From a virus, in IMG/VR virus record IMGVR_UViG_3300023245_000067, positions 1 to 30,839 of that record: a stretch of 30,839 nucleotides of DNA. The stretch is one strand, 5' to 3'. Under the pieces are notes generated by a model that saw nothing but the letters and a program-made list of their open reading frames with translations, did no database searches and was not told where the DNA came from. This document shows positions 7,809-22,639 of this stretch, one piece after another; the first letter of the stretch is position 1, and every line of letters begins with the position of its first letter. The translations under genes and the position numbers were made by a program.

Positions 7809-8023
7809 GTGACAGATGGCCATGGTCTCAGATGTATGAGACTCTGGTTGGCAGTTACGATGTTGCACCATCAGAATATTGGGGCATGACTCCCATTGAG
7901 TGCTGGCATGTAATTGCGGCAAAGATACCTGCAAGGAAATTTGGCGAGATGAACGGCCCAGACTTTGACAGATTGGCAGAACGCAGAGCAGAACTAGAAG
8001 CTCAAGGCATAAGGGTGCACTAA
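7769..8023 (+). CDS. Tail assembly chaperone, frameshift extension (GT-like)
   Basis: This is the -1 frame part of the chaperone fusion. It is read after slippage at 7763-7769 and adds 84 residues beginning VQAATSGGDQKALGD and continuing with WPWSQMYETLVGSYD and EYWGMTPIECWHVIAAK. An ATG at 7832 exists inside this frame, but the 21 sense codons between the slip site and that ATG, which look protein-like (DRWPWSQ), argue that it is made as a fusion. The end overlaps the tape-measure start as TAATG. Confidence 0.85.
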   Translation, partial: VQAATSGGDQKALGDRWPWSQMYETLVGSYDVAPSEYWGMTPIECWHVIAAKIPARKFGEMNGPDFDRLAERRAELEAQGIRVH

Positions 8024-9978
8024 TGGCCCAGATAGGCGCGCTCAGCGTCAAGGTCTCAATTGACTCTTCAGGCGTTGACATTAATGGCAAGAAGGTTGTC
8101 AGGTCTGTCAAAGAGATCAATGCAGAGCTTCGATCATCAGTAAACAGTTTGGCTAAGTGGGGTGCCGCAGCCGGTGCCGCAGCTATAGCCGTGAGCGCCG
8201 CTATTGTGCGCAGTAACATCTCAAGCATTGATGCCCTTGCCAAGACAGCAGACAAGCTGGGCCTCACCACAGATGCCCTTGCTGGCTTGAGGTTCGCAGC
8301 TGAGCAGACAGGCATTGCGCAAACCACATTAGACATGGCCCTTCAGCGATCCACCAGACGAATCGCTGAAGCTGCGCAGGGCACCGGCGAGGCGGTCAAA
8401 GCACTTGACACTCTTGGCTTATCAGCTGAAGACCTTGCCGCAAAATCACCCGACCAACAGATGAGAGACATTGCTGACGCGATGGCAAATGTTGAAGGTG
8501 AGGGCAACAAACTGGCGCTGGCATTCAAGCTGTTTGATTCTGAAGGTGCTGCGCTGGTCAACACATTGCGCGGCGGTTCTGCATCACTAGATGAATTTCA
8601 AAGTCAGGCTGAGAAACTAGGTCTGGCCATCAGTAGAGTTGACGCTGCCAAAGTGGAAGCGGCCAATGATGCCATCAATAGAATGAATTCAGGACTGAAG
8701 GGCGCGGCTCAATCGGTCACGGTTACACTTGCGCCAGTCATTGCAGCACTGGCTGACAAGTTTGTTGACTCAGCCATTGCGGCTGGTGGCTTTGGCTCAA
8801 TAGCTGAGAGGGCATTCAGCACAGCTGTGCGCGGTGTTGGCTTTCTGGCTGACATGCTGCGCGGCGTTGATGTGGTTCGCAAGACAATTGAGGTGGGCTT
8901 CTTAGGACTGGCAGCGGTCATTGTTAAAGGCGGCACAGAGGTGCTGCGCGGCTGGTCAATGATATTCTCAACCATTGGTGATGGATTGCGCAACATGATT
9001 GAGTTGGCCAACAGGCTGCCCATGATCAACATCCCAACTGATGGGCTTGATGCTTTCACCTCGCGGCTTGAGACTGAGCAGGATGCACTCAAGGCCATGG
9101 GTGACGTTGCAGTTGCAGCCGTCAAAGAGTCAGCAGATGAGCTGGCCATTCTTGCCATGAAGCCACTGCCATCTGAAGCCATTCAAGCCTATGCTGATGG
9201 CGCAGTTGAGGTAGCCAACACAGCCGTTGAAGAGATGGCGCGGATCAGAGAAGAGGCAGCTGCTGGCGGCCTGACAGAAGATGAAGAAGGCGGTCTGCTC
9301 GCGCAAACTCAGCTTGAGTCTGAAGCATTCCTTGAGGAATTGCGGCAGAGATATCTGACAGCGCAAGAGATTAAAGATGAAGCATATGCGCTTGACCTTG
9401 AAAAACTGAGAGCGGCCAGAGAGAACGGCCTGCTGACTGAAGAAGAATTCCTGCAACGCAAGCAGGCACTTGATCAGCAGTTTGCCAAAGACAGCGCTGA
9501 CATCACCAAGGCTGAACAGAATCTCAAAAACAGATTGGTTGGGCAGGGTGGTGACTCTCTGCTGAGCACGCTATCAAACAGCGCAAAACGTGGCACAGCC
9601 ATTCAACGAACAGCAGCGAAAGCTCAAGCGGTCATTGCGATTGCAACAGGTGCTTCCAAAGCTCTTGCATTAGGCTTACCCGCAGCGATACCAGAGGGCA
9701 TCAGAGTGGCAACAGTTGGCGCTGCTTCACTTGCTCAGATTGGCGCAGGTGGAAGCTCAAGCATACCAACTGGCAGCGCATCAAGTTCATCGGAAGCACT
9801 GAGCACTGGCACATCGGCAACATCCAGCGGGCCAGCAGTTGCAGCAGAACCAACTCAATTTGTGACCATTGCCGTGCCAGATGATGCACTTCTTGGCGGC
9901 ACCGGTGTTAGGAGTTTGATAGAATTGATTAATGAGCAGACCAGCGATGGCGTTCAATTGACAGTGACTACAGGATAA
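8023..9978 (+). CDS. Tail tape measure protein
   Basis: This 651-residue protein sets tail length and is ejected with the DNA. The N-terminus (IGALSVKVSIDSSGVD) is followed by a hydrophobic Ala-rich helix around residues 45-65, a long helical region with ALAKTADKLGLTTDALAGLRFAAE-type repeats common in tape measures, and an acidic coiled coil around 400-490. Near the end comes AKAQAVIAIATGASKALALG, typical of this family, and then a Ser/Thr/Gly-rich low-complexity linker. With about 1.5 angstroms per residue in known siphophages, the length would suggest a tail near 100 nm. This is the longest late gene apart from the hub. Confidence 0.93.
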   Translation: MAQIGALSVKVSIDSSGVDINGKKVVRSVKEINAELRSSVNSLAKWGAAAGAAAIAVSAAIVRSNISSIDALAKTADKLGLTTDALAGLRFAAEQTGIAQTTLDMALQRSTRRIAEAAQGTGEAVKALDTLGLSAEDLAAKSPDQQMRDIADAMANVEGEGNKLALAFKLFDSEGAALVNTLRGGSASLDEFQSQAEKLGLAISRVDAAKVEAANDAINRMNSGLKGAAQSVTVTLAPVIAALADKFVDSAIAAGGFGSIAERAFSTAVRGVGFLADMLRGVDVVRKTIEVGFLGLAAVIVKGGTEVLRGWSMIFSTIGDGLRNMIELANRLPMINIPTDGLDAFTSRLETEQDALKAMGDVAVAAVKESADELAILAMKPLPSEAIQAYADGAVEVANTAVEEMARIREEAAAGGLTEDEEGGLLAQTQLESEAFLEELRQRYLTAQEIKDEAYALDLEKLRAARENGLLTEEEFLQRKQALDQQFAKDSADITKAEQNLKNRLVGQGGDSLLSTLSNSAKRGTAIQRTAAKAQAVIAIATGASKALALGLPAAIPEGIRVATVGAASLAQIGAGGSSSIPTGSASSSSEALSTGTSATSSGPAVAAEPTQFVTIAVPDDALLGGTGVRSLIELINEQTSDGVQLTVTTG

Positions 9979-9985
9979 AAAGGCC

Positions 9986-11035
9986 ATGGCATTCACACCA
10001 GAACCAGCAGGCAGCATTGCAGTTCCAGTCACAGTGGCACCAGAGACGGCTGGCGAGATTGCAGCGCCGGTCACAGTTTCACCTGAGTCAGCAGGCACTG
10101 TTGCGGTTCCTGTAACAGTTACGCCTGAGACAGTGGGTGGGTTGGCCGTACCTGCCACCGTATCCCCAGAGACAGCAGGTGAGGTTGCAGCACCCATAAC
10201 TGTCACGCCTGAGACAGTTGCCGAAGTTGCAGCACCAGTTGTGCTCACTGATGTCACAGAGGGTGCGATTGCAACACCTGTGAGCCTGTCGCCAGAGACA
10301 CTTGGTGAGGTAGCCATTCCGGTCACAGTTGCACCTGAGTCAGCCGGTGCCATAGTGGTGCCGGTAGTGGTTACGCCAGAGACACTTGGTGAGGTAGCCA
10401 TTCCGGTCACAGTTGCACCTGAGTCAGCCGGTACCATAGTGGTGCCGGTAGTGGTTACGCCAGAGACACTTGGTGCTGTTGCCATACCAACCACCGTTGC
10501 ACCAGAAACTCTGGGAGCATTGGGCGTGCCGGTTGTTGTTGGCCCAGAGACACTTGGTGCCGTAGCGGTTCCGGTAGTAGTAGCACCAGAGACTCTTGGT
10601 GCCATAGTTGTGCCGGCTGTTGTCGCGCCTGAAACACTTGGTGCGTTGGCAGTGCCTGTGACGGTGACACCAGAAACTCTGGGCGCTCTTGCCGTCCCAG
10701 TTACAGTTGCACCTGAGACAGTTGGTGCCATCTCGGTGCCAGTCACTCTCACACCTGCTGACACTAACATTCAATATCTTGACTATGGCAGCACTGCTGA
10801 TGCGGTCACAACTAGTCTTGACTATGAAGGCACAGCAGATACACCCACCACATTTCTTGACTATGGATCAACCATTGTTGGCACCGGCGCACTGGTTCCA
10901 CCCATTGACTTGGCAGCGGTTGCTCTGGGCGCAGTTGCGGTGCCAATTGTGGTCACACCAGAGGCGGCCAACGATGTCGCAATTCCTGTTACACTAACAG
11001 CCGTTGCAGCAGGCTCAATTGGCCCACCAGCTTAG
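9986..11035 (+). CDS. 14-residue tandem-repeat protein of unknown function (tail region)
   Basis: This 349-residue protein is almost wholly repeats. Residues 9-260 are 18 consecutive 14-residue units with consensus G-A-[ILV]-A-V-P-V-T-V-x-P-E-T-[LVA]. Next come three 13-residue units built on LDYGSTADA (261-299), then about two and a half more degenerate 14-residue units. Each unit alternates hydrophobic residues (VPVTV) and then turns at PETLG, which suggests one beta strand plus a turn, as in a beta-solenoid or fibrous shaft. There are no Cys residues. Position directly after the tape measure and before a fibre gene suggests a virion tail or fibre role. I know no named family with this repeat. 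A long open antisense frame is a side effect of the 42-base period. Confidence 0.8.
   Translation: MAFTPEPAGSIAVPVTVAPETAGEIAAPVTVSPESAGTVAVPVTVTPETVGGLAVPATVSPETAGEVAAPITVTPETVAEVAAPVVLTDVTEGAIATPVSLSPETLGEVAIPVTVAPESAGAIVVPVVVTPETLGEVAIPVTVAPESAGTIVVPVVVTPETLGAVAIPTTVAPETLGALGVPVVVGPETLGAVAVPVVVAPETLGAIVVPAVVAPETLGALAVPVTVTPETLGALAVPVTVAPETVGAISVPVTLTPADTNIQYLDYGSTADAVTTSLDYEGTADTPTTFLDYGSTIVGTGALVPPIDLAAVALGAVAVPIVVTPEAANDVAIPVTLTAVAAGSIGPPA
10010..10765 (+). repeat. 18 tandem copies of a 42-bp coding repeat
   Basis: The 42-base units encode the 14-residue repeats. Most have diverged at third positions, but the adjacent 84-base blocks 10291-10374 and 10375-10458 differ by a single base (G at 10349, A at 10433). 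That marks a recent duplication of a two-unit block. Confidence 0.92.
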
Positions 11036-11046
11036 GACTTTATTAA

Positions 11047-11925
11047 ATGGCAGATTCAACTCAGGTAAAATTTAGAGGCGGCACCACAGCAGAGAACGCT
11101 GCAATGGTTCCGGTTGAAAAAGAAATGGTCATTGATAAGACCAAGAAAGTTGTTGCAGTTGGCGACGGTGTACAGGCTGGCGGTCATGAGATGCTTGGCG
11201 CGAATATGGCCAACTATGACGGCACGCGCCTGACAGTCACATTAAACGGCGCGGCATTGGATTTAACCGGCGCGGCGTCCATTGGTGGCTTGCTCACAGC
11301 CCTTGCTGGCTTGGCGGTAACTGGTGATATAAGTGCGGTATCAAACGTAACTGTTACCGGCACTGACTCTGACTCTCCTACTGTAACCTTGCAAGCCGGC
11401 CCAACTGCTGCTGGTGGGTTCTTGCGTCCAGCAATAAACCTATATGACGAAACAGGGGTTAACGGCAACCGAGTACAGAACCTAGCTGACGGTAGTGACT
11501 TGCTTCAGTTCCAGCGAGTAGTCGCAGGAACCCCCACAACAATTATGGCTATGTCTGCTGCTGGCTTGGCGGTAACTGGTGATATTACAGCAGCAGGCAG
11601 TGTAGCTGTTACAGACTTTTTAAGGCTACCTAACAAGGGAGAGCTAACTATAGCTACAGGCGTTATTACCGCGACAGGCTCTCAGCATTTTGTAGACACA
11701 GAAGCCGACGCAGCAACAGATGATTTAGCTACTATTAACGGAGGAACTTCGGGGGATATTTTAATTCTGAGATCGGCCAACAACAGTCGCGACACCACCG
11801 TGAAAGACGGCTCGGGAAATCTCAGGATTGCGGGAGATTTCACTTTAACAAACTCTCAAGACACGATTGAGCTTCTTTTCGATGGGTCTAATTGGATTGA
11901 ACTATCTAGGAGCGATAACTCATGA
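11047..11925 (+). CDS. Tail fibre / receptor-binding protein with Mtd-N-like head
   Basis: The first ~50 residues (STQVKFRGGTTAENAA, then EMVIDKTKKVVAVGDGVQAGGHEMLG) resemble the N-terminal attachment domain of fibres such as Bordetella phage Mtd, where an R-x-G-T-T-A-E-x-A motif is followed by a beta hairpin ending in D-G-x-x-x-G-G. The middle has two AGLAVTGDI[ST]A segments separated by ~85 residues. The C-terminal part (NGGTSGDILILRSANNSR... NWIELSRSDNS) is a common fibre ending. From about 11260 to 12130 the DNA uses more CTA, TTA and AGA codons than neighbouring tail genes, which suggests an acquired receptor-binding module. No reverse transcriptase or template repeat is nearby. Confidence 0.75.
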   Translation: MADSTQVKFRGGTTAENAAMVPVEKEMVIDKTKKVVAVGDGVQAGGHEMLGANMANYDGTRLTVTLNGAALDLTGAASIGGLLTALAGLAVTGDISAVSNVTVTGTDSDSPTVTLQAGPTAAGGFLRPAINLYDETGVNGNRVQNLADGSDLLQFQRVVAGTPTTIMAMSAAGLAVTGDITAAGSVAVTDFLRLPNKGELTIATGVITATGSQHFVDTEADAATDDLATINGGTSGDILILRSANNSRDTTVKDGSGNLRIAGDFTLTNSQDTIELLFDGSNWIELSRSDNS

Positions 11926-12497
11926 ACATAACAATCTTACAAGACAACACAGTCCACGTCCGATACAGATCTGGCGAGTCTCAAACAATCAACTCTACAC
12001 ACGCTCACAAGGCTTTATCGCCAATCGTTGAGGCAGTAGCTAAAGCGCTGCCTTACAAGGGCGCAATGGAATTTACAGCTGATTACACAGCCCCTACATT
12101 CAGCTTTGATTCCTTAGAATGCACAGGTGGCAATAAAGCCTTTGAAGCTGCTATAGGGCCATTCATGGCCGAGCTAACGGAATTAAAAGCTGCATTTGAC
12201 GGGGAAGAAGATCAGCCAATCACCAAAACCGAAATGCGCCCAGAGCAGAAGGTTGAAATGATTGACGGCGCTGCTGTGATGGTCACAACTGAGGTGCCGC
12301 ATGAGGTGCCGCAGTATGATGAATTCCCCATCACGGATGGCACAGGCCAGCCGGTTCTTGAATTGGTATCAGCAGCAACTGAAGATGCTGATGCAGTCTA
12401 CAAGCAAGCCGTTCACAAGGTTGCCAAAATGAAGAAGGGCAAGAAAGTATCTGCAACCAAGAAGAAAAGGCTGGCCAAACTTCTGGCCACTGGATAG
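11922..12497 (+). CDS. Hypothetical protein downstream of tail fibre (191 aa)
   Basis: The start overlaps the fibre stop as ATGA, so the two are translationally coupled. The product starts with beta-like MNITILQDNTVHVRYRSGES, has a helical middle and ends in a strongly basic tail (KKGKKVSATKKKRLAKLL). It contains an internal DEVP/HEVPQYDEFP segment. I recognise no family. A fibre-assembly chaperone is possible because such genes commonly follow fibres, but nothing in the sequence proves it. Confidence 0.6.
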   Translation: MNITILQDNTVHVRYRSGESQTINSTHAHKALSPIVEAVAKALPYKGAMEFTADYTAPTFSFDSLECTGGNKAFEAAIGPFMAELTELKAAFDGEEDQPITKTEMRPEQKVEMIDGAAVMVTTEVPHEVPQYDEFPITDGTGQPVLELVSAATEDADAVYKQAVHKVAKMKKGKKVSATKKKRLAKLLATG

Positions 12498-12504
12498 TTG
12501 ACCG

Positions 12505-13245
12505 ATGCCGTTAACGCCAACCACACCGGCAGTTGTTGGTGCTGCACAAATTGGATATCAGAACCTGCTAGAAACAGCAGAAGATCTTGAGATGTTGACA
12601 CCTGACACATGGCAGCGGTGGAGGCCATCAGTGGCTGATGACACCCTTCTGTCATTGGGTGGCCCAACTGAGTGCGATTACATTGGAATTGCTGCACACA
12701 CGCTCACAGGCGTTGAGGTGATAGTTAAAACATCTGCCACCCTTGGCGGTGCTCTGACTACCAGATCAACCACCACGCCAACCGACAACCGGCCCATCAT
12801 CATTGCACTTGCTGACCTGACCATTGCTGATGTGCAAATCCTTGTTGATGGCGCGTGCGAGATTGGCGTTGTCTATGCTGGCAATCTGATGGAAATGGAG
12901 CGCCCAATCTACGGCGGGCACTCACCCAATGACCTGAATCCAACTGCTGTGTATCAGAGCAACATGTCTGAGTCGGGCCAGTTTCTTGGTCGCCAGATAA
13001 TCCGCAAAGGCGGTGACACTCAATTCAACTGGCGCAACCTGACAGCTGCATGGGTGCGCTCAACCTTTGACACATTCATTGAGTCTGCACTGACCAAACC
13101 TTTCTTCATTCAGTGGCGGCCTGACAGCTATGCCTCAGAAATATCTTTTGCCCACACCACTGGACAGATCGCTCTGACCAACCAAGGCGGCAGCACTGAG
13201 CTGATGAGTGCGAGCATGAAGGTCAGGGCGCACAGTGACATTTGA
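12505..13245 (+). CDS. Putative distal tail / tail-tip structural protein
   Basis: The 246-residue protein is beta-rich with few charged helices. Notable segments are DTWQRWRPSVADDTLLSLGG, CDYIGIAAHTLTGVEVIVKTS, and near the C-terminus FDTFIESALTKPFFIQWRPDSYASEISFAHTTGQIALTNQGG. It overlaps the hub gene by 11 bases, and small beta-sandwich proteins in this slot are often distal-tail or hub-adaptor proteins. Assignment is by position and fold-like composition, not by a recognised motif. Confidence 0.55.
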   Translation: MPLTPTTPAVVGAAQIGYQNLLETAEDLEMLTPDTWQRWRPSVADDTLLSLGGPTECDYIGIAAHTLTGVEVIVKTSATLGGALTTRSTTTPTDNRPIIIALADLTIADVQILVDGACEIGVVYAGNLMEMERPIYGGHSPNDLNPTAVYQSNMSESGQFLGRQIIRKGGDTQFNWRNLTAAWVRSTFDTFIESALTKPFFIQWRPDSYASEISFAHTTGQIALTNQGGSTELMSASMKVRAHSDI

Positions 13246-15523
13246 AACTGAGCGCATTGCATATTCAAAAGAGCACATTTATATCATTGAGGTGTTGCAA
13301 GACTTCTGTGATCTTGTAAGCGGCACAGCGCCGTGCACTGCCACTGAGACTGGTGATGCTAAGTGCTACAACACACTTGCCAGCTGCAACGATGTGCCAA
13401 ACTTTGACCAGACAACAAAGACTTATAGTTTCTGCACTCCCAGATCACCGCACCCAGCTGGGCTGGATGCAATACCCTCACTGCTATCAGTAAGTATCAC
13501 ACCAGCACAGATAGACTTGCAGGGTGGTCTGGGTACACGTTCAAATGTATCTCTGACATTCAGTGATCAGCCCAGTGCAGACATATCTGATGACCCATAT
13601 CTTGCTGACCGCACATACATTGCCAGCGATCAGGGCACGTTCTGGACAAAGTGGCGCTCAAGAAATCCGCATTACCAAGGGCGCACTCTGAGGGTGCTGT
13701 CTGGGTACCTGGTTGATGGCGCATACGATGCGACCAACTTCACCACCCGCACATATATCATTGACAAATTAGATGTCACCAAGGGCAAATGCACCATCGT
13801 TGGGAAAGACCCACTCAAGCTGGCAGACAGCCTGAAGGCTAAGGCACCAGCGCCCAGTGCTGGGCTTCTATCAGGTGCGCTCACCGCAGTGGCAACAACC
13901 GTGAACCTTGTGCCAACCGGCATTGGCTCTGAATATCCAAGCACTGGCTTTGTCAGGGTGAAGGGTGAGGTGATGGAAATCACCAGCAAGGCATCAGATG
14001 CGCTCACTGTTGTGCGTGGCCAGTACAACACCACTGCCGCCGCACAGTCTGCCAATGATACCGTGCAGTTGTGCCTTGAATATGATGGCGTTCAGGTTGA
14101 TGACATTGTTGAAGACCTGCTGACAACTTACGCAGGCATTGACTCTGCGTTCATTCCAACCGCAAGTTGGGCAGCTGAAGCTGACATCTATCTGACCGGA
14201 CTGCTCAGTGCTTTGATTACTGAGCCAACCGGCGTGGGCACCCTCCTAAAAGAGCTGGGTGAGCAGGCACCGCATTCTCTGTACTGGGATGAGCGCAGCC
14301 AAAAGATAGAATTCATTGCCGTTAAACCGCCACCAGCGAGCGCCAACGTCTATGACATGAGTGGCAACCTGCTTGAGAAAAGTGTATCAATCAAAGATGA
14401 GCAAGCACTGCGCATCTCAACGGTTATCATTTACTTTGGACTTGTTGACCCAACTCAGAAACTAGATGAGCTGAACAACTATGCGCAGATATATGCGCGC
14501 ATTGATCCTGACTCAATCACCGCCTATGGCAGCGACCAGATCAAAACCATTCACAGCAGATGGGTCACGAACCTGAACAAGACAGCTGCACTGCTAATGG
14601 GTGAGAGACTAGGCAGGCGGTTCAGCAATATGCCGCGCTCAATCATGTTTGCCTTTGATACAAAGGATGGCAGCGTGTGGGCAGGTGACACCATCAGCAT
14701 CAACCACCGTGACATGGTTGACTTTGCCGGTGTGCCTGAAGACATTATTTTTCAAGTAGTCAGTGCTCATGAGGGTGCTGAGAATTACAAATACAAGGGT
14801 ATTGAATTTGGCTATGGCGCAGCAGTTGACTCAGATGATGGCGCTGGTGATATCGGAGTTGACCTGATAACCATCGGTGCCAATCAAGAAAATCTGAACA
14901 TGCGCACTGCGTATGACTCGCTCTTTCCTGCACCTGATGCAACCACAGTGGCCAAGATAGTTATCGAGGCCGGCGTTGAGGTGGGCAGCATTGACAACCT
15001 AACTGCCGGATTCGATACAGGGTCATGGCCAGTGGGCGCTGTGATAACAATTGAGAATAGAGGGTTCATTGTTGGCCGGGGTGGAGTAAGAGGAGGCACT
15101 GGATCTGGCACTGGAGCTAAAAACGGTACAGCTGGAGGCCTTGCTTTGAACATCACAAATGATGTTACCATCGACAACTTTGGCGTGATCGGTGGCGGTG
15201 GAGGCGGTGGTGGCTCTCTCAGATTCTTCTCAGATTTGGACGGCAGCGCATACTCTGCAATCGGTGGTGATGGAGCAGGCTATATTAGACAGATAGGCCC
15301 AACTGTGACAGACGGGGAGGCAGCCGTGGCAAACAGCAGCCCACCTGATGGCACATACTATGGCGGTTATGGTGGTGATCTCGGTGTTGCAGGTGGCATC
15401 TCAGATGGATACTACGGTGGTGACGAAGGCCTTGGTGGTGCAGCCGGTGCAGCAATTGATGAGAACGGCAACTCTGTGACATACTCTACCGCTGGCACGA
15501 TTGAGGGTGTGATAATTCCATGA
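13235..15523 (+). CDS. Tail tip hub / host-specificity protein with glycine-rich adhesin tail
   Basis: This 762-residue protein is the likely central tip protein. The N-terminus holds five Cys residues (25, 34, 44, 51, 67) in the context CYNTLASC and TYSFCTP. The middle (residues ~90-530) resembles hub proteins, with beta-rich segments and ADIYLTGLLSALITEPTGVGTLLKELGEQAPHSLYWDERSQKI-type helical and strand blocks. After ~residue 595 comes a domain with VGAVITIENRGFIVGRGG, a run of eight glycines, and GGYGGDLGVAGGIS. This recalls the polyglycine receptor-binding domains of T-even gp38-type adhesins. The C-terminus is therefore the probable host-recognition surface. Confidence 0.8.
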   Translation: MTFETERIAYSKEHIYIIEVLQDFCDLVSGTAPCTATETGDAKCYNTLASCNDVPNFDQTTKTYSFCTPRSPHPAGLDAIPSLLSVSITPAQIDLQGGLGTRSNVSLTFSDQPSADISDDPYLADRTYIASDQGTFWTKWRSRNPHYQGRTLRVLSGYLVDGAYDATNFTTRTYIIDKLDVTKGKCTIVGKDPLKLADSLKAKAPAPSAGLLSGALTAVATTVNLVPTGIGSEYPSTGFVRVKGEVMEITSKASDALTVVRGQYNTTAAAQSANDTVQLCLEYDGVQVDDIVEDLLTTYAGIDSAFIPTASWAAEADIYLTGLLSALITEPTGVGTLLKELGEQAPHSLYWDERSQKIEFIAVKPPPASANVYDMSGNLLEKSVSIKDEQALRISTVIIYFGLVDPTQKLDELNNYAQIYARIDPDSITAYGSDQIKTIHSRWVTNLNKTAALLMGERLGRRFSNMPRSIMFAFDTKDGSVWAGDTISINHRDMVDFAGVPEDIIFQVVSAHEGAENYKYKGIEFGYGAAVDSDDGAGDIGVDLITIGANQENLNMRTAYDSLFPAPDATTVAKIVIEAGVEVGSIDNLTAGFDTGSWPVGAVITIENRGFIVGRGGVRGGTGSGTGAKNGTAGGLALNITNDVTIDNFGVIGGGGGGGGSLRFFSDLDGSAYSAIGGDGAGYIRQIGPTVTDGEAAVANSSPPDGTYYGGYGGDLGVAGGISDGYYGGDEGLGGAAGAAIDENGNSVTYSTAGTIEGVIIP

Positions 15524-16965: not shown

Positions 16966-17235
16966 ATGGACACAGTTTTGAATTACGGATCATATTTTCT
17001 CACCATCTTAGGCACGGCACTGGCAATGGCTGCGATGCTAGGCCCAAAACTTCTGGCACTGCTTGAGGCTGTTGAAGCCAGCACTGATGAAGGCACCAAG
17101 ATTGACAGCAACCTTGACACTGCCATCCGGTGGATTCAGTTTGTACTGGTATATGCCACGGTGCAGAACTCAACCAGAGTGAAAGCAGCAGCTGCTGCAA
17201 TTAGCAGAAAGCCTGCCGGAACTAGGGGAGAGTAA
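16966..17235 (+). CDS. Small membrane protein, possible holin (89 aa)
   Basis: The product has an N-terminal hydrophobic segment (residues ~8-33, SYFLTILGTALAMAAMLGPKLLALL) and a second, weaker one near 53-66 (IRWIQFVLVYATV). A basic C-terminal tail follows (SRKPAGTRGE). Size and layout are compatible with a class II-like holin. A good ribosome site (GAGGG) precedes the ATG and the stop overlaps the next start. Either this or the coiled-coil protein at 15989 could be the holin. Confidence 0.55.
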   Translation: MDTVLNYGSYFLTILGTALAMAAMLGPKLLALLEAVEASTDEGTKIDSNLDTAIRWIQFVLVYATVQNSTRVKAAAAAISRKPAGTRGE

Positions 17236-17822
17236 TGAGTCAGCTTTTTCCCCTGTATAACAATGTCAAAGACAAAGCCCCAACTAAATATCTATGCCTA
17301 GCTGAGTTGTGTGCTTACGCATGCACTCCGACGGTTGGCCCGAAGTCTGAATCCCCGGCACTCACTCCCTATTTTGCCTCCGCCAAAACCAAGGAGGCGG
17401 CCCTAGCGGCAGAGTTCAATGCGCTGGTAATAGATCACGACCATGACAATCTGACAGAGGAAAATATTCGCGTCATTTACGATGCATACGGAGTGGCCTA
17501 TCTGGCATTCACGACTGCAAGCCACATGCAGGAAAAGGGCGGCATTACCGCCAACCGCTGGAAAGTGGTAATACCTTTCGAGAATCCTGCGCGCTATGAA
17601 CAATTCGTGAAGCTTGCCGTGGGCCTCACCATTCACCATGGCGCAGACCGAGCCCAAGCTAGAGCCCAGCAGGTGTTCTATGCCCCAAACAAATTAGAGC
17701 CGGACGCCGAGTATAAATTCATAAACGCTACTGATTCACCGTTTCTGGTTCTCGAAGATGAAGCTAATCCGCTAGTGGTCGCTGCCTTGTCTGCGTACGC
17801 CAAGACCAGGAGGAGACGTTAA
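17235..17822 (+). CDS. Stand-alone AEP (PrimPol-like) primase/polymerase domain protein
   Basis: The 195 residues carry signs of an archaeo-eukaryotic primase core: ALVIDHDHDNLTEENI (hhDxD metal motif), AYLAFTTASHM (the S-x-H motif), ANRWKVVIPFENP (basic strand), and GADRAQARAQQVFYAPNKLE (strand and Asn as in phage and plasmid primases). The usual helicase or PriCT C-terminus is absent; the protein ends in an Arg run just before a repeat-rich region. It is the last gene of the rightward late block, unusual for a replication gene, and its base use is more GC rich than its neighbours. Possibly an acquired or shortened primase placed beside an origin. Confidence 0.55.
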   Translation: MSQLFPLYNNVKDKAPTKYLCLAELCAYACTPTVGPKSESPALTPYFASAKTKEAALAAEFNALVIDHDHDNLTEENIRVIYDAYGVAYLAFTTASHMQEKGGITANRWKVVIPFENPARYEQFVKLAVGLTIHHGADRAQARAQQVFYAPNKLEPDAEYKFINATDSPFLVLEDEANPLVVAALSAYAKTRRRR

Positions 17823-17836
17823 CCGACTATAGTGAG

Positions 17837-17932
17837 GGTAAAGACAGGGACGGCAGGGACGCCTGTTCCGACATTCCATAATGCGGTAAAGACAGGGACG
17901 GCAGGGACGCCTGTTCCGACATTCCATAATGC
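17837..17932 (+). repeat. Two perfect 48-bp tandem direct repeats
   Basis: Copies are 17837-17884 and 17885-17932, followed by a stub of a third (GGTAAA). Each unit contains two GGGACG boxes nine bases apart and a TTCCGACATTCC stretch. They are candidate iterons. Confidence 0.92.
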
Positions 17933-17988
17933 GGTAAAAAAAGGTTTGTATTTTAGTCTGAGCCTGAAAACTATTTGTCTGGGTATAG

Positions 17989-18026
17989 GGGAATGTGGAA
18001 AGACGTGTCCCTTGCGTCCCTCGCCA
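17989..18026 (-). repeat. Degenerate inverted copy of the 48-bp repeat
   Basis: On the plus strand this reads GGGAATGTGGAAAGACGTG and then TCCCTTGCGTCCCTC. It matches the reverse complement of the repeat core with a one-base indel and a few substitutions. The two orientations flank about 55 bases of AT-rich DNA. Confidence 0.7.
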
Positions 18027-18199
18027 TCAGCAACACAAGCAAAAAATGGGCCTTTTCGGAGCAGTACTCGCGGGGGACGATAACCGACGTAGAAGGCCGC
18101 ACGGGCATCCTGTTTCATGCGGCAAATCTAGTTAGCCAGCTGCTCGGTTGCGTAGCAATGGGGATCAGGCGCGGCAAGCTAGGAGGCGAGGAGGCCGTA

Positions 18200-18658
18200 T
18201 TATCCTCTGGGGCTGCACTGAATAGTCGGTTTATAAGATAAAACCTTATCAACTATTCCAATAATACCTTTGAGTTTATCGTAATCTTTGCCGCAGGCTT
18301 CGCGAAGTCGTTGCAAAACGAACCATGCTGATTTTTGAGTAATACCTATTTCTTTAGATAGTTGCAACGACGAAATACCTTTGCGGGAAGTAATCAGTAA
18401 ATACATCGCATAAATCCATTTATGTAGCGGCACATGCGATCTTTCAAATATAGTGCCTGTGCGAACTGTAAAATCTAATTTGCATGAATTACAGCGATAG
18501 TATCCGTTTTTACGAATAGTAATCCGTTTGTCCGAACTACATGTAGGGCAATGTGCGCCATCAGGCCAACGGCGAGACTCTAAATAATCTCTAGCTGAAT
18601 CCTGATCTGGAATTATTTGAAATAACTGAAATGTGCTGATTGTTAATTTATCGTTCAT
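18200..18658 (-). CDS. IS1595/ISXO2-type transposase N-terminal fragment (zinc ribbon + HTH only)
   Basis: Residues 1-~110 match the start of IS1595-family transposases: FQIIPDQDSARDYLESRRWPDG, a zinc ribbon with CPTC and CNSC pairs, FTVRTGTIFERSHVPLHKW, then SLQLSKEIGITQKSAWFVLQRL (HTH) and KLKGI. In intact enzymes the DDE catalytic domain begins here. This protein instead diverges (IIGIVDKVLSYKP) and stops at 152 residues. No terminal inverted repeats are visible. It is coupled to two other small genes under a good promoter, so it may be a retained DNA-binding protein, not just debris. Start chosen at ATG 18658, overlapping the upstream stop. Confidence 0.72.
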   Translation of the reverse strand: MNDKLTISTFQLFQIIPDQDSARDYLESRRWPDGAHCPTCSSDKRITIRKNGYYRCNSCKLDFTVRTGTIFERSHVPLHKWIYAMYLLITSRKGISSLQLSKEIGITQKSAWFVLQRLREACGKDYDKLKGIIGIVDKVLSYKPTIQCSPRG

Positions 18659-18902
18659 CCAAATGTTCTTTATAAATGTCGCCAGCTTCGCGCAGAAGTC
18701 GAGCGAGTGCATTAGCAGTAATGCCGCCTTGCGATAACATTTCATTAATCTTGTCGAGTTGCTTGACTTTACTATCGATGTAATCGCCGTCAGACGACAT
18801 CTCAAAGGTCACTATAATGCCGGTAGGCTTGTGAGTGGCGCAACAGGCAGCAAGATCAACTTGCCACCTGTTGCGCCAGTTACGATTTGGGTGATTAGTC
18901 AC
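18648..18902 (-). CDS. Hypothetical early protein (84 aa, GTG start)
   Basis: The product opens MTNHPNRNWRNRWQVDLAAC and continues with CATHKPTGIIVTFE, then a charged helical half (DYIDSKVKQLDKINEML...LARLLREAGDIYKEHLDER). The GTG start overlaps the upstream stop by 8 bases and the end overlaps the transposase-like gene by 11, so the three form one unit. The N-terminal R-W-x-V-D motif looks conserved-phage-like, but I cannot name a family. Confidence 0.65.
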   Translation of the reverse strand: MTNHPNRNWRNRWQVDLAACCATHKPTGIIVTFEMSSDGDYIDSKVKQLDKINEMLSQGGITANALARLLREAGDIYKEHLDER

Positions 18903-21663: not shown

Positions 21664-21959
21664 GTTATATACTCCTTTAACCAGGAAAATCGTATCGCAA
21701 AAACTTCAACCGGATCTGGGCCAAAATGTCTATGTGTTATCGTTTTTATTCTATAACCGCCGTAATTGAAATACATACGCCTACTTTCGTCATCGCGTTT
21801 TGGATACCCCCTAGTGAAAATTATCTCGCCGTAATCTCTGCCCACTAATCGCTTCTTCCAGTAATCAGTGCACAGCCTAAATTCTTCTGTTTTATCGCCT
21901 CGCTGTATCGCGTCGAAATACTCTCCGTTTAAAGCAATCTGCAATGTTTTCTTATTCAT
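21660..21959 (-). CDS. ASCH/PUA-like domain protein
   Basis: The product (99 residues from ATG 21959) has LQIALNGEYFDAIQRGDKTEEFR, then DYWKKRLVGRDYGEIIFTRGYPKRDDESRR and a beta-rich end with HRHFGPDPVEVFAIRF. The G-x-K-T-x-E-x-R pattern after a short strand and helix is that of ASCH-type RNA- or nucleotide-binding domains common in phages. I chose ATG 21959 because it overlaps the DUF1376 stop as TAATG. Confidence 0.7.
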   Translation of the reverse strand: MNKKTLQIALNGEYFDAIQRGDKTEEFRLCTDYWKKRLVGRDYGEIIFTRGYPKRDDESRRMYFNYGGYRIKTITHRHFGPDPVEVFAIRFSWLKEYIT

Positions 21960-22639
21960 TAGTCTGCCCATCCTGTATCCGTTAAATCGGTTAATAAGGA
22001 TCTATCTCTAGTGCTCGTTTTAGATACTTCCTTTTGCTGATTCTTTTCCCATGTTCTTACGCACGCTTTCCAGTCCTTGATTTTGGTCTTACCTCGCATC
22101 CATCCATTAGTTTCGTAATGGTTAATAAAGTTTTCAGGATCAACGAAGTTATTTCTTTCCATGCAATACATTTGCACTTCTTCTAATTTGGGAGGAGCGA
22201 AGCGAGCGACTATCTTTTTAGTATTAGTTATTGGTTTATGGTTCTTGGTTCTTGGTTCTTGGTTCTTGGTTGGTTGCACGGTCGTTGCACGGTCGTTGAA
22301 CGGTCGTTCTATCTTGTTGTTTCTCCTAGACTTTGCGCTTGCCTTTCCTGCCTTAGATGCCGCCTCTATCTTTCCTTGATAGATACTTATCTCTGTATCT
22401 GCCCTACTATTAACCCAATTATCACCAGTTTTAGGGAAGAACTTGTTAAGAATATAGTCAACTTCAGTCTGATTGCCCTGCATTCCAATATCCCGTGCAA
22501 CGTCCGTTGAACACCCGTTGAACGGACGTTCATTTAGATAGTAAACATCGAGCAATCGGCGATAGGCTAGATCCTCTAACAGAGATAATCTGCTCGTTCG
22601 TCTGGCGTAGTCGCCTATATTGAATGGGTAGTAATGCAA
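21959..22639 (-). CDS. DUF1376 replication protein (O-like initiator candidate)
   Basis: The N-terminus is a classic DUF1376 domain: HYYPFNIGDYARRTSRLSLLEDLAYRRLLDVYYLNERPF, VARDIGM, ILNKFFPKTGDNWVNSRADTEI. The C-terminus (PPKLEEVQMYCMERNNFVDPENFINHY, WMRGKTKIKDWKACVRTWEKN) resembles DNA-binding C-termini of phage replication organisers. The linker (~105-150) is Thr/Asn/Lys rich and is encoded by short tandem repeats that look like origin iterons. Start is TTG at 22639 directly after an in-frame stop. Likely role: replication initiation and host helicase loading. Confidence 0.8.
   Translation of the reverse strand: MHYYPFNIGDYARRTSRLSLLEDLAYRRLLDVYYLNERPFNGCSTDVARDIGMQGNQTEVDYILNKFFPKTGDNWVNSRADTEISIYQGKIEAASKAGKASAKSRRNNKIERPFNDRATTVQPTKNQEPRTKNHKPITNTKKIVARFAPPKLEEVQMYCMERNNFVDPENFINHYETNGWMRGKTKIKDWKACVRTWEKNQQKEVSKTSTRDRSLLTDLTDTGWAD
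22241..22268. repeat. Four perfect 7-bp repeats (GGTTCTT) inside the DUF1376 gene
   Basis: Four uninterrupted heptamers lie next to an AT-rich stretch (22210-22240). Because seven is not a multiple of three, a change in copy number would shift the reading frame and remove the C-terminal DNA-binding part. Confidence 0.92.
22274..22306. repeat. Three 11-bp iteron-like repeats (GTTG[CA]ACGGTC)
   Basis: Units at 22274, 22285 and 22296 follow each other exactly; the third differs by one base. The last unit creates the inverted motif GAACG-GT-CGTTC (22299-22310). They lie beside the heptamers and an AT-rich stretch. Confidence 0.88.
22504..22532. repeat. Second cluster of related 11-bp repeats (CCGTTGAAC..)
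   Basis: Two 11-base units (22504-22514, 22515-22525) and the palindromic TGAACG-GA-CGTTCA (22519-22532) match the first cluster in core sequence, about 200 bases away in the same gene. Confidence 0.82.

Follow-up and report, generated by a model that had tools for sequence, protein, structure and literature searches.

A candidate tail-tip spacer or scaffold built from 14-residue repeats in marine and aquatic siphophages

We describe a family of 14-residue repeats encoded between the tape measure and tail-tip genes of marine and aquatic siphophages. A free-standing repeat protein is encoded in a 30,839-nucleotide stretch of a marine phage IMG/VR record (hereafter the window) and, judged by its sequence, has both the unit and the gene position by which we define the family here. 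This protein is probably an undescribed tail-tip building block, and on balance we favor the view that it is a spacer or scaffold there. Arrays of this kind in related phages are sometimes part of a Dit-like protein with a predicted sugar-binding CBM32 domain, and these fusions are our chief reason for assigning the free protein to the distal tail. We infer that it would be present in the virion, bind the Dit-like protein, and fold into a regular structure that serves as a spacer.

The repeat protein and its neighbors in the window

The window encodes a terminase, an HK97-type capsid and a GTA-like siphophage tail set. The tape measure protein (TMP) gene (8023-9978, + strand; phrog_9483, E 8e-145) is followed after 8 nt by the repeat gene (9986-11035, + strand, ATG start), which ends 12 nt ahead of the downstream gene. 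Its 349-aa product has a pI of about 4 and contains no Lys, Arg, His, Cys or Trp. Because Lys, Arg and His are missing, tryptic data would be uninformative for this protein, which offers ordinary tryptic proteomics no internal cleavage and could easily be missed. Residues 5-256 (9998-10753, + strand) are 18 back-to-back 14-residue units with zero internal indels, the consensus PETLGAVAVPVTVA and a hydrophobic-x-x-Pro-x-x-hydrophobic core. PE opens 17 of the 18 units, the degenerate remaining one being DVTEGAIATPVSLS; the Pro column is conserved at 0.96, and the flanking positions are hydrophobic at 0.92 (-3) and 0.96 (+3). Three units of about 13 residues with a DYG motif follow (10778-10891, + strand), namely LDYGSTADAVTTS, LDYEGTADTPTTF and a degenerate third, LDYGSTIVGTGA. 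The C-terminal tail (10892-11032, + strand) appears from our reading of the protein to hold 2-3 further 14-residue units. A preliminary description of this DNA had counted 18 copies of a 14-residue repeat followed by three LDYG units, with a periodic strand-turn pattern and a position in the tail cluster; all of this holds, and its inventory lacked the C-terminal 14-mers. Lag-14 self-similarity is strong in the sense frame (z = 12-20 against composition-preserving shuffles), and a degenerate 48-nt unit pattern has 11 matches, all inside the repeat gene, whereas 100 shuffled versions of the window gave 0.

One full-length homologue, 51% identical, is encoded by a second phage (IMG/VR 3300024518_003244, a 33,681-bp record; G001, loci L014/L022), where it has the same neighbors. 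It shares the start MAFTPEP and the same layout of 14-mers, three DYG units and again 14-mers. By sequence it is the sole clear full-length homologue, and among 80 loci related through their TMP, arrays are confined to the window lineage and G001. Between the two phages, identity is 62% for the TMP, 51% for the repeat protein, 68% for the Dit-like protein and 73% for the adhesin. Divergence by codon position between the repeat gene and its homologue (0.35/0.26/0.68) confirms sense coding of 9986-11035, and codons have changed at 105 of the 166 residues that are identical. An antisense ORF (9787-10770, - strand, 327 aa) was rejected as a gene by the same measure and is thus a by-product; this open frame is present in homologues too and is accounted for by the repeat's codons.

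Downstream lie a gene for a fibre-like protein with an Mtd_N N-terminal domain (11047-11925, + strand; PF18454, E 2.3e-6, above cut-off) and one for a 191-aa protein of no family (11922-12497, + strand), whose C-terminal part resembles a G001 protein. These are followed by the gene for a CBM32-bearing protein (12505-13245, + strand; phrog_11633; F5/8C/CBM32 profile, E 0.0034), which we call Dit-like since its assignment as a distal tail protein is based on position and CBM content, and by that for a large tail-tip protein with a Gp38-like glycine-rich adhesin end (13235-15523, + strand; phrog_11439, E 3e-222; PF05268). The repeat gene thus sits directly 3' of the TMP gene and upstream of the phrog_11633 gene, with two genes intervening in the window and G001. 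In P12026, 1N2-2, XX1924 and GJ44 the phrog_11633 gene adjoins the TMP gene or is separated from it by one small ORF, and in Pseudoalteromonas phages the interval holds small ORFs on either strand. Given this gene order in relatives, the two intervening genes are extra in the window and G001.

The preliminary description had proposed a new spike shaft, whisker or adhesin, and the beta-like repeats, together with a gene position in the tail cluster beside an Mtd_N fibre gene, are compatible with this. However, profile searches of the repeat protein for an N-terminal anchor and a receptor-binding tip domain found none, no receptor-binding or trimerisation domain was detected, and its conservation with G001 over the full length exceeds that of the adjacent Mtd_N fibre. 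Likeness between the Mtd_N gene and its counterpart (11048-12004 in L022) is limited to the first ~33 residues, the pattern expected if a receptor-binding fibre can exchange its tip. The fibre-like gene is the neighbor, and relatives tie the array to the Dit-like protein; we regard a tail spike, or the shaft of a receptor-binding adhesin, as decidedly improbable.

Two other parts of the window also carry tandem repeats. In one, a perfect 48-bp x 2.1 tandem (17837-17938) begins shortly after the end of a helicase/primase-like piece (17235-17822; phrog_256, E 9e-5), and beyond the tandem lies a transposase-like zinc-ribbon ORF (18200-18805, - strand; phrog_25593); the whole (17235-18805) looks like a replication gene broken by insertion. 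Within a primosomal-type gene (21959-22639, - strand), adjoining 7-bp x 6.4 and 11-bp x 3.3 tandems (22227-22308) may mark an origin-like repeat or simply a stretch that varies.

Arrays in related siphophages and their shared unit

By eye and by a lag-14 scan of the interval from TMP to tail tip in related phages, we found a wider set of arrays, many of which come from related phages and are not independent. The carriers include Pseudoalteromonas phages SL25, AL, PHS3, PS_L5 and Pq0, Idiomarinaceae phage 1N2-2, Alteromonas phages PB15 and XX1924, Oceanospirillum phage GJ44 and several metagenomic phages. The array is a free ORF in SL25, AL, PHS3, PS_L5 (WMM36560), L062 (MALTPQAAGALSAPTTLAPEAAGAIEAPDTLTPEAAGAI...) and L048, and PHS21 has a free array seen merely as a fragment at the record end. 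It lies within the phrog_11633 protein itself in 1N2-2 (N22_023), Pq0, PS_L5, PB15, XX1924 and GJ44 and in the metagenomic loci L048, L091/L092, L100, L105 and L117. Several phages, such as PS_L5 and L048, have both forms; the free and fused arrays of L048 share the same unusual basic composition (pI 10.1 each). The short 14-mer genes of SL25 (L010 4630-4815), AL (L031 4971-5168) and PHS3 (L120 4618-4815) are unannotated, and the annotations of AL and PHS3 have an opposite-strand gene called over the repeat gene. The preliminary description missed the relatives and the fusions.

Fused arrays sit close to the N-terminus of the CBM32-bearing protein. The 1N2-2 protein begins MAVVISNSMAV, matching the MAVVISSSLVV of array-free relatives, which places the array between the N-terminal strand and the CBM32 domain, whose part of the protein has the conserved start PPFPLNHARIL past the array. 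Such gene fusion argues for a physical association of array and CBM32-bearing protein, and it gives the earlier proposal of a virion part an indirect link that does not extend to a spike, whisker or adhesin. The lag-14 scan finds an array fused or adjacent in 9/80 phrog_11633 loci; about 70/80 have no detected array, so that the array is dispensable in general. Arrays are also missing from H105/1 and HS2, the two named relatives of their group for which structural proteomes have been published, so these proteomes say nothing about the array.

The repeat protein could alternatively be an assembly factor that helps the tape measure or the adjacent fibre as a scaffold or chaperone and is not kept in the virion. 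Its placement between the TMP and Mtd_N genes and its acidic composition, free of basic residues, are compatible with this, as is the fact that no virion peptide is known for it; our search for a proteome of an array-bearing phage found none, the available one covering PSA-HS phages (PMC5498523), relatives of which the two checked, H105/1 and HS2, are array-free. In relatives, however, the interval from TMP to phrog_11633 has no Mtd_N gene and the array belongs to the CBM32-bearing tail-tip protein itself, and we consider an assembly factor improbable.

About 175 units in 17 phrog_11633-linked arrays are almost indel-free, as counted with a gap penalty; the exceptions to the register are the DYG module, one insert in GJ44 and single-residue shifts at two array starts. 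In phase-aligned units, position 7 is I/V/L at 0.78, position 10 Pro at 0.79 and position 13 L/V/I at 0.74. Most arrays share this Pro-centered core: against a null made by column permutation, hydrophobicity summed over positions -3/+3 of Pro reaches 29.7 for all arrays (null 13.1 +/- 1.8, largest 19.5) and 17.3 with one array per group (null 7.9 +/- 1.4, largest 13.0). Tested array by array, GJ44 fails and L105 passes in part. A strict 14-residue register with almost free sequence amounts to a compact rule for designing part of a phage tail.

Known families offer no match. The window protein had no hit above cut-off among Pfam, PHROG and NCBIfam profiles, weak matches to FliK and DUF6324 being below cut-off and compositional, and none in a PDB sequence search, in agreement with the earlier statement that no known family fits. 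A match in Corynebacterium phage CL31 (E 0.03) is antisense to its gene and hence due to chance. A two-unit pattern run against 84,980 bacterial and archaeal genomes returned 37 stretches and no convincing relative; these were rejected as 7-mers, other low-complexity sequence or antisense frames. A search with the DYG module had matches at E of 3 only, and we came across no 14-residue repeat of phage tails in a literature search. The family defined here, absent from the searched libraries, accounts for several ORFs that lie between tape measure and distal-tail genes and had been hypothetical or unannotated, and links them to the tail tip in cultured marine phages.

Array length, fold and proposed role

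Between units of the window array, synonymous divergence is near saturation (pS 0.66) while pN is 0.27, which indicates that the array is mostly old and under purifying selection. Only 10290-10457 (+ strand), two 84-bp copies of two units each that are 1 base apart, is a fresh duplication; the rest is ancient. L003 (IMGVR 3300035698_001956), 99.4-99.95% identical to the window over the matched region, lacks exactly 84 bp of this duplication and so has two units fewer, with TMP length unchanged. Unit number therefore varies, unless the L003 assembly collapsed the repeat.

This bears on whether the array could be a tail-length ruler or tube decoration with one unit per tube ring. The repeat gene adjoins the TMP gene, and 14 extended residues (about 4 nm) roughly match the ring spacing of a siphophage tube. 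Unit number, however, runs from 0 to 24 against TMPs of 592-663 aa and is uncorrelated with their length (Spearman -0.18, p 0.64), and L003 loses two units at constant TMP length. We rejected this model, which we hold to be extremely improbable.

Structure prediction weakly suggests the solenoid or rod of the preliminary description. The best of five AlphaFold models of the window protein has a mean pLDDT of 59.9 and a pTM of 0.62 (the other four, pLDDT 49-53), with strands every 28 residues, or two units, and block means of about 66-83 over residues 70-200. This model suggests, at low confidence, a beta arrangement with a 28-residue period, and a beta rod is plausible; a Foldseek search of the low-confidence monomer against the PDB returned nothing significant (best E 0.21, CsgA). 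For the fused L105 protein, AlphaFold predicts a confident C-terminal part, of which residues 202-327 align with CBM32 modules at Z 17.3 and 2.1 A across 122 residues, the structural matches listed being confined to this CBM32 part. Its array is modeled as low-confidence coil (pLDDT 36-48).

Low pLDDT of this kind would suit a flexible, extended tether, elastin-like and rich in Pro, Ala and Val, with no fixed fold and a period merely inherited from duplication. The Pro+Gly content of the phage arrays (0.11-0.21), the very divergent and partly polar units of GJ44 and XX1924, and the shift of copy number by whole units are likewise compatible with such a linker. However, an unconstrained linker would not be expected to keep constant Pro and hydrophobic positions under purifying selection, nor to stay almost free of indels across about 175 highly diverged units. 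The strict register argues for a regular structure over a loose linker, and we judge the flexible tether unlikely.

Under our preferred reading of a spacer or scaffold, each unit would consist of a turn, PExx, and a short strand carrying the hydrophobic-x-x-Pro-x-x-hydrophobic core in strict 14-residue register, and the units would most likely fold into a regular elongated beta array. This array would be held at the distal tail ring beside the CBM32-bearing Dit-like protein; in the window it is a protein of its own, and in relatives an insertion in the Dit-like protein. There it may serve the adhesion device as a spacer or scaffold whose length would evolve via gain or loss of whole units. More tentatively, and as a possibility that we would not yet call likely, the family may represent an undescribed proline-centered beta unit that builds length-variable tail-tip rods and moves between free gene and CBM32-protein insertion in aquatic siphophages.

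Comparison with known systems

A familiar 14-residue beta-roll is formed by YadA-like head repeats (PF05658), with alternating hydrophobic residues and a turn. The phage units differ in having Pro where the beta-roll has Gly, and a search of 11 repeat proteins for PF05658 gave nothing up to an E of 1. For the DYG module, a lead rather than a relationship comes from Synechococcus phage Sf-FS3 (L036), in which D[YW]G motifs 13 residues apart occur in one place (EDWGLISNSATEFEDWG; tblastn E of 3 only). These DWG motifs, at residues about 476-500 of a 1502-aa protein, resemble the window's DYG module.

A parallel in design is the tail protein QOI69663 of Aeromonas phage BUCT551 (Casjensviridae; L035), whose C-terminal PYGLRPGVIADLTA repeats have a 14-residue period, about 19 units and the same hydrophobic-x-x-Pro-x-x-hydrophobic core, in a tail-tip gene adjoining DUF2163. 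Its sequence is different and its array forms the C-terminus of a 1438-aa protein; the likeness is one of design, with homology no more than a possibility.

The arrangement as a whole recalls the evolved Dits of siphophages, distal tail proteins carrying CBMs (reviewed in PMC7291167); those described occur mostly in phages of Gram-positive bacteria, with the CBMs in galectin-domain loops. The 14-residue array was not found in the searched parts of that review, and the window differs in encoding its array as a separate gene. For the 12505-13245 protein, the CBM that marks an evolved Dit is indicated by its profile match (E 0.0034) together with the fold predicted for its L105 relative. As in evolved Dits, the protein that bears or neighbors the array is encoded just past the TMP and carries a CBM32/F5-8C-type domain.
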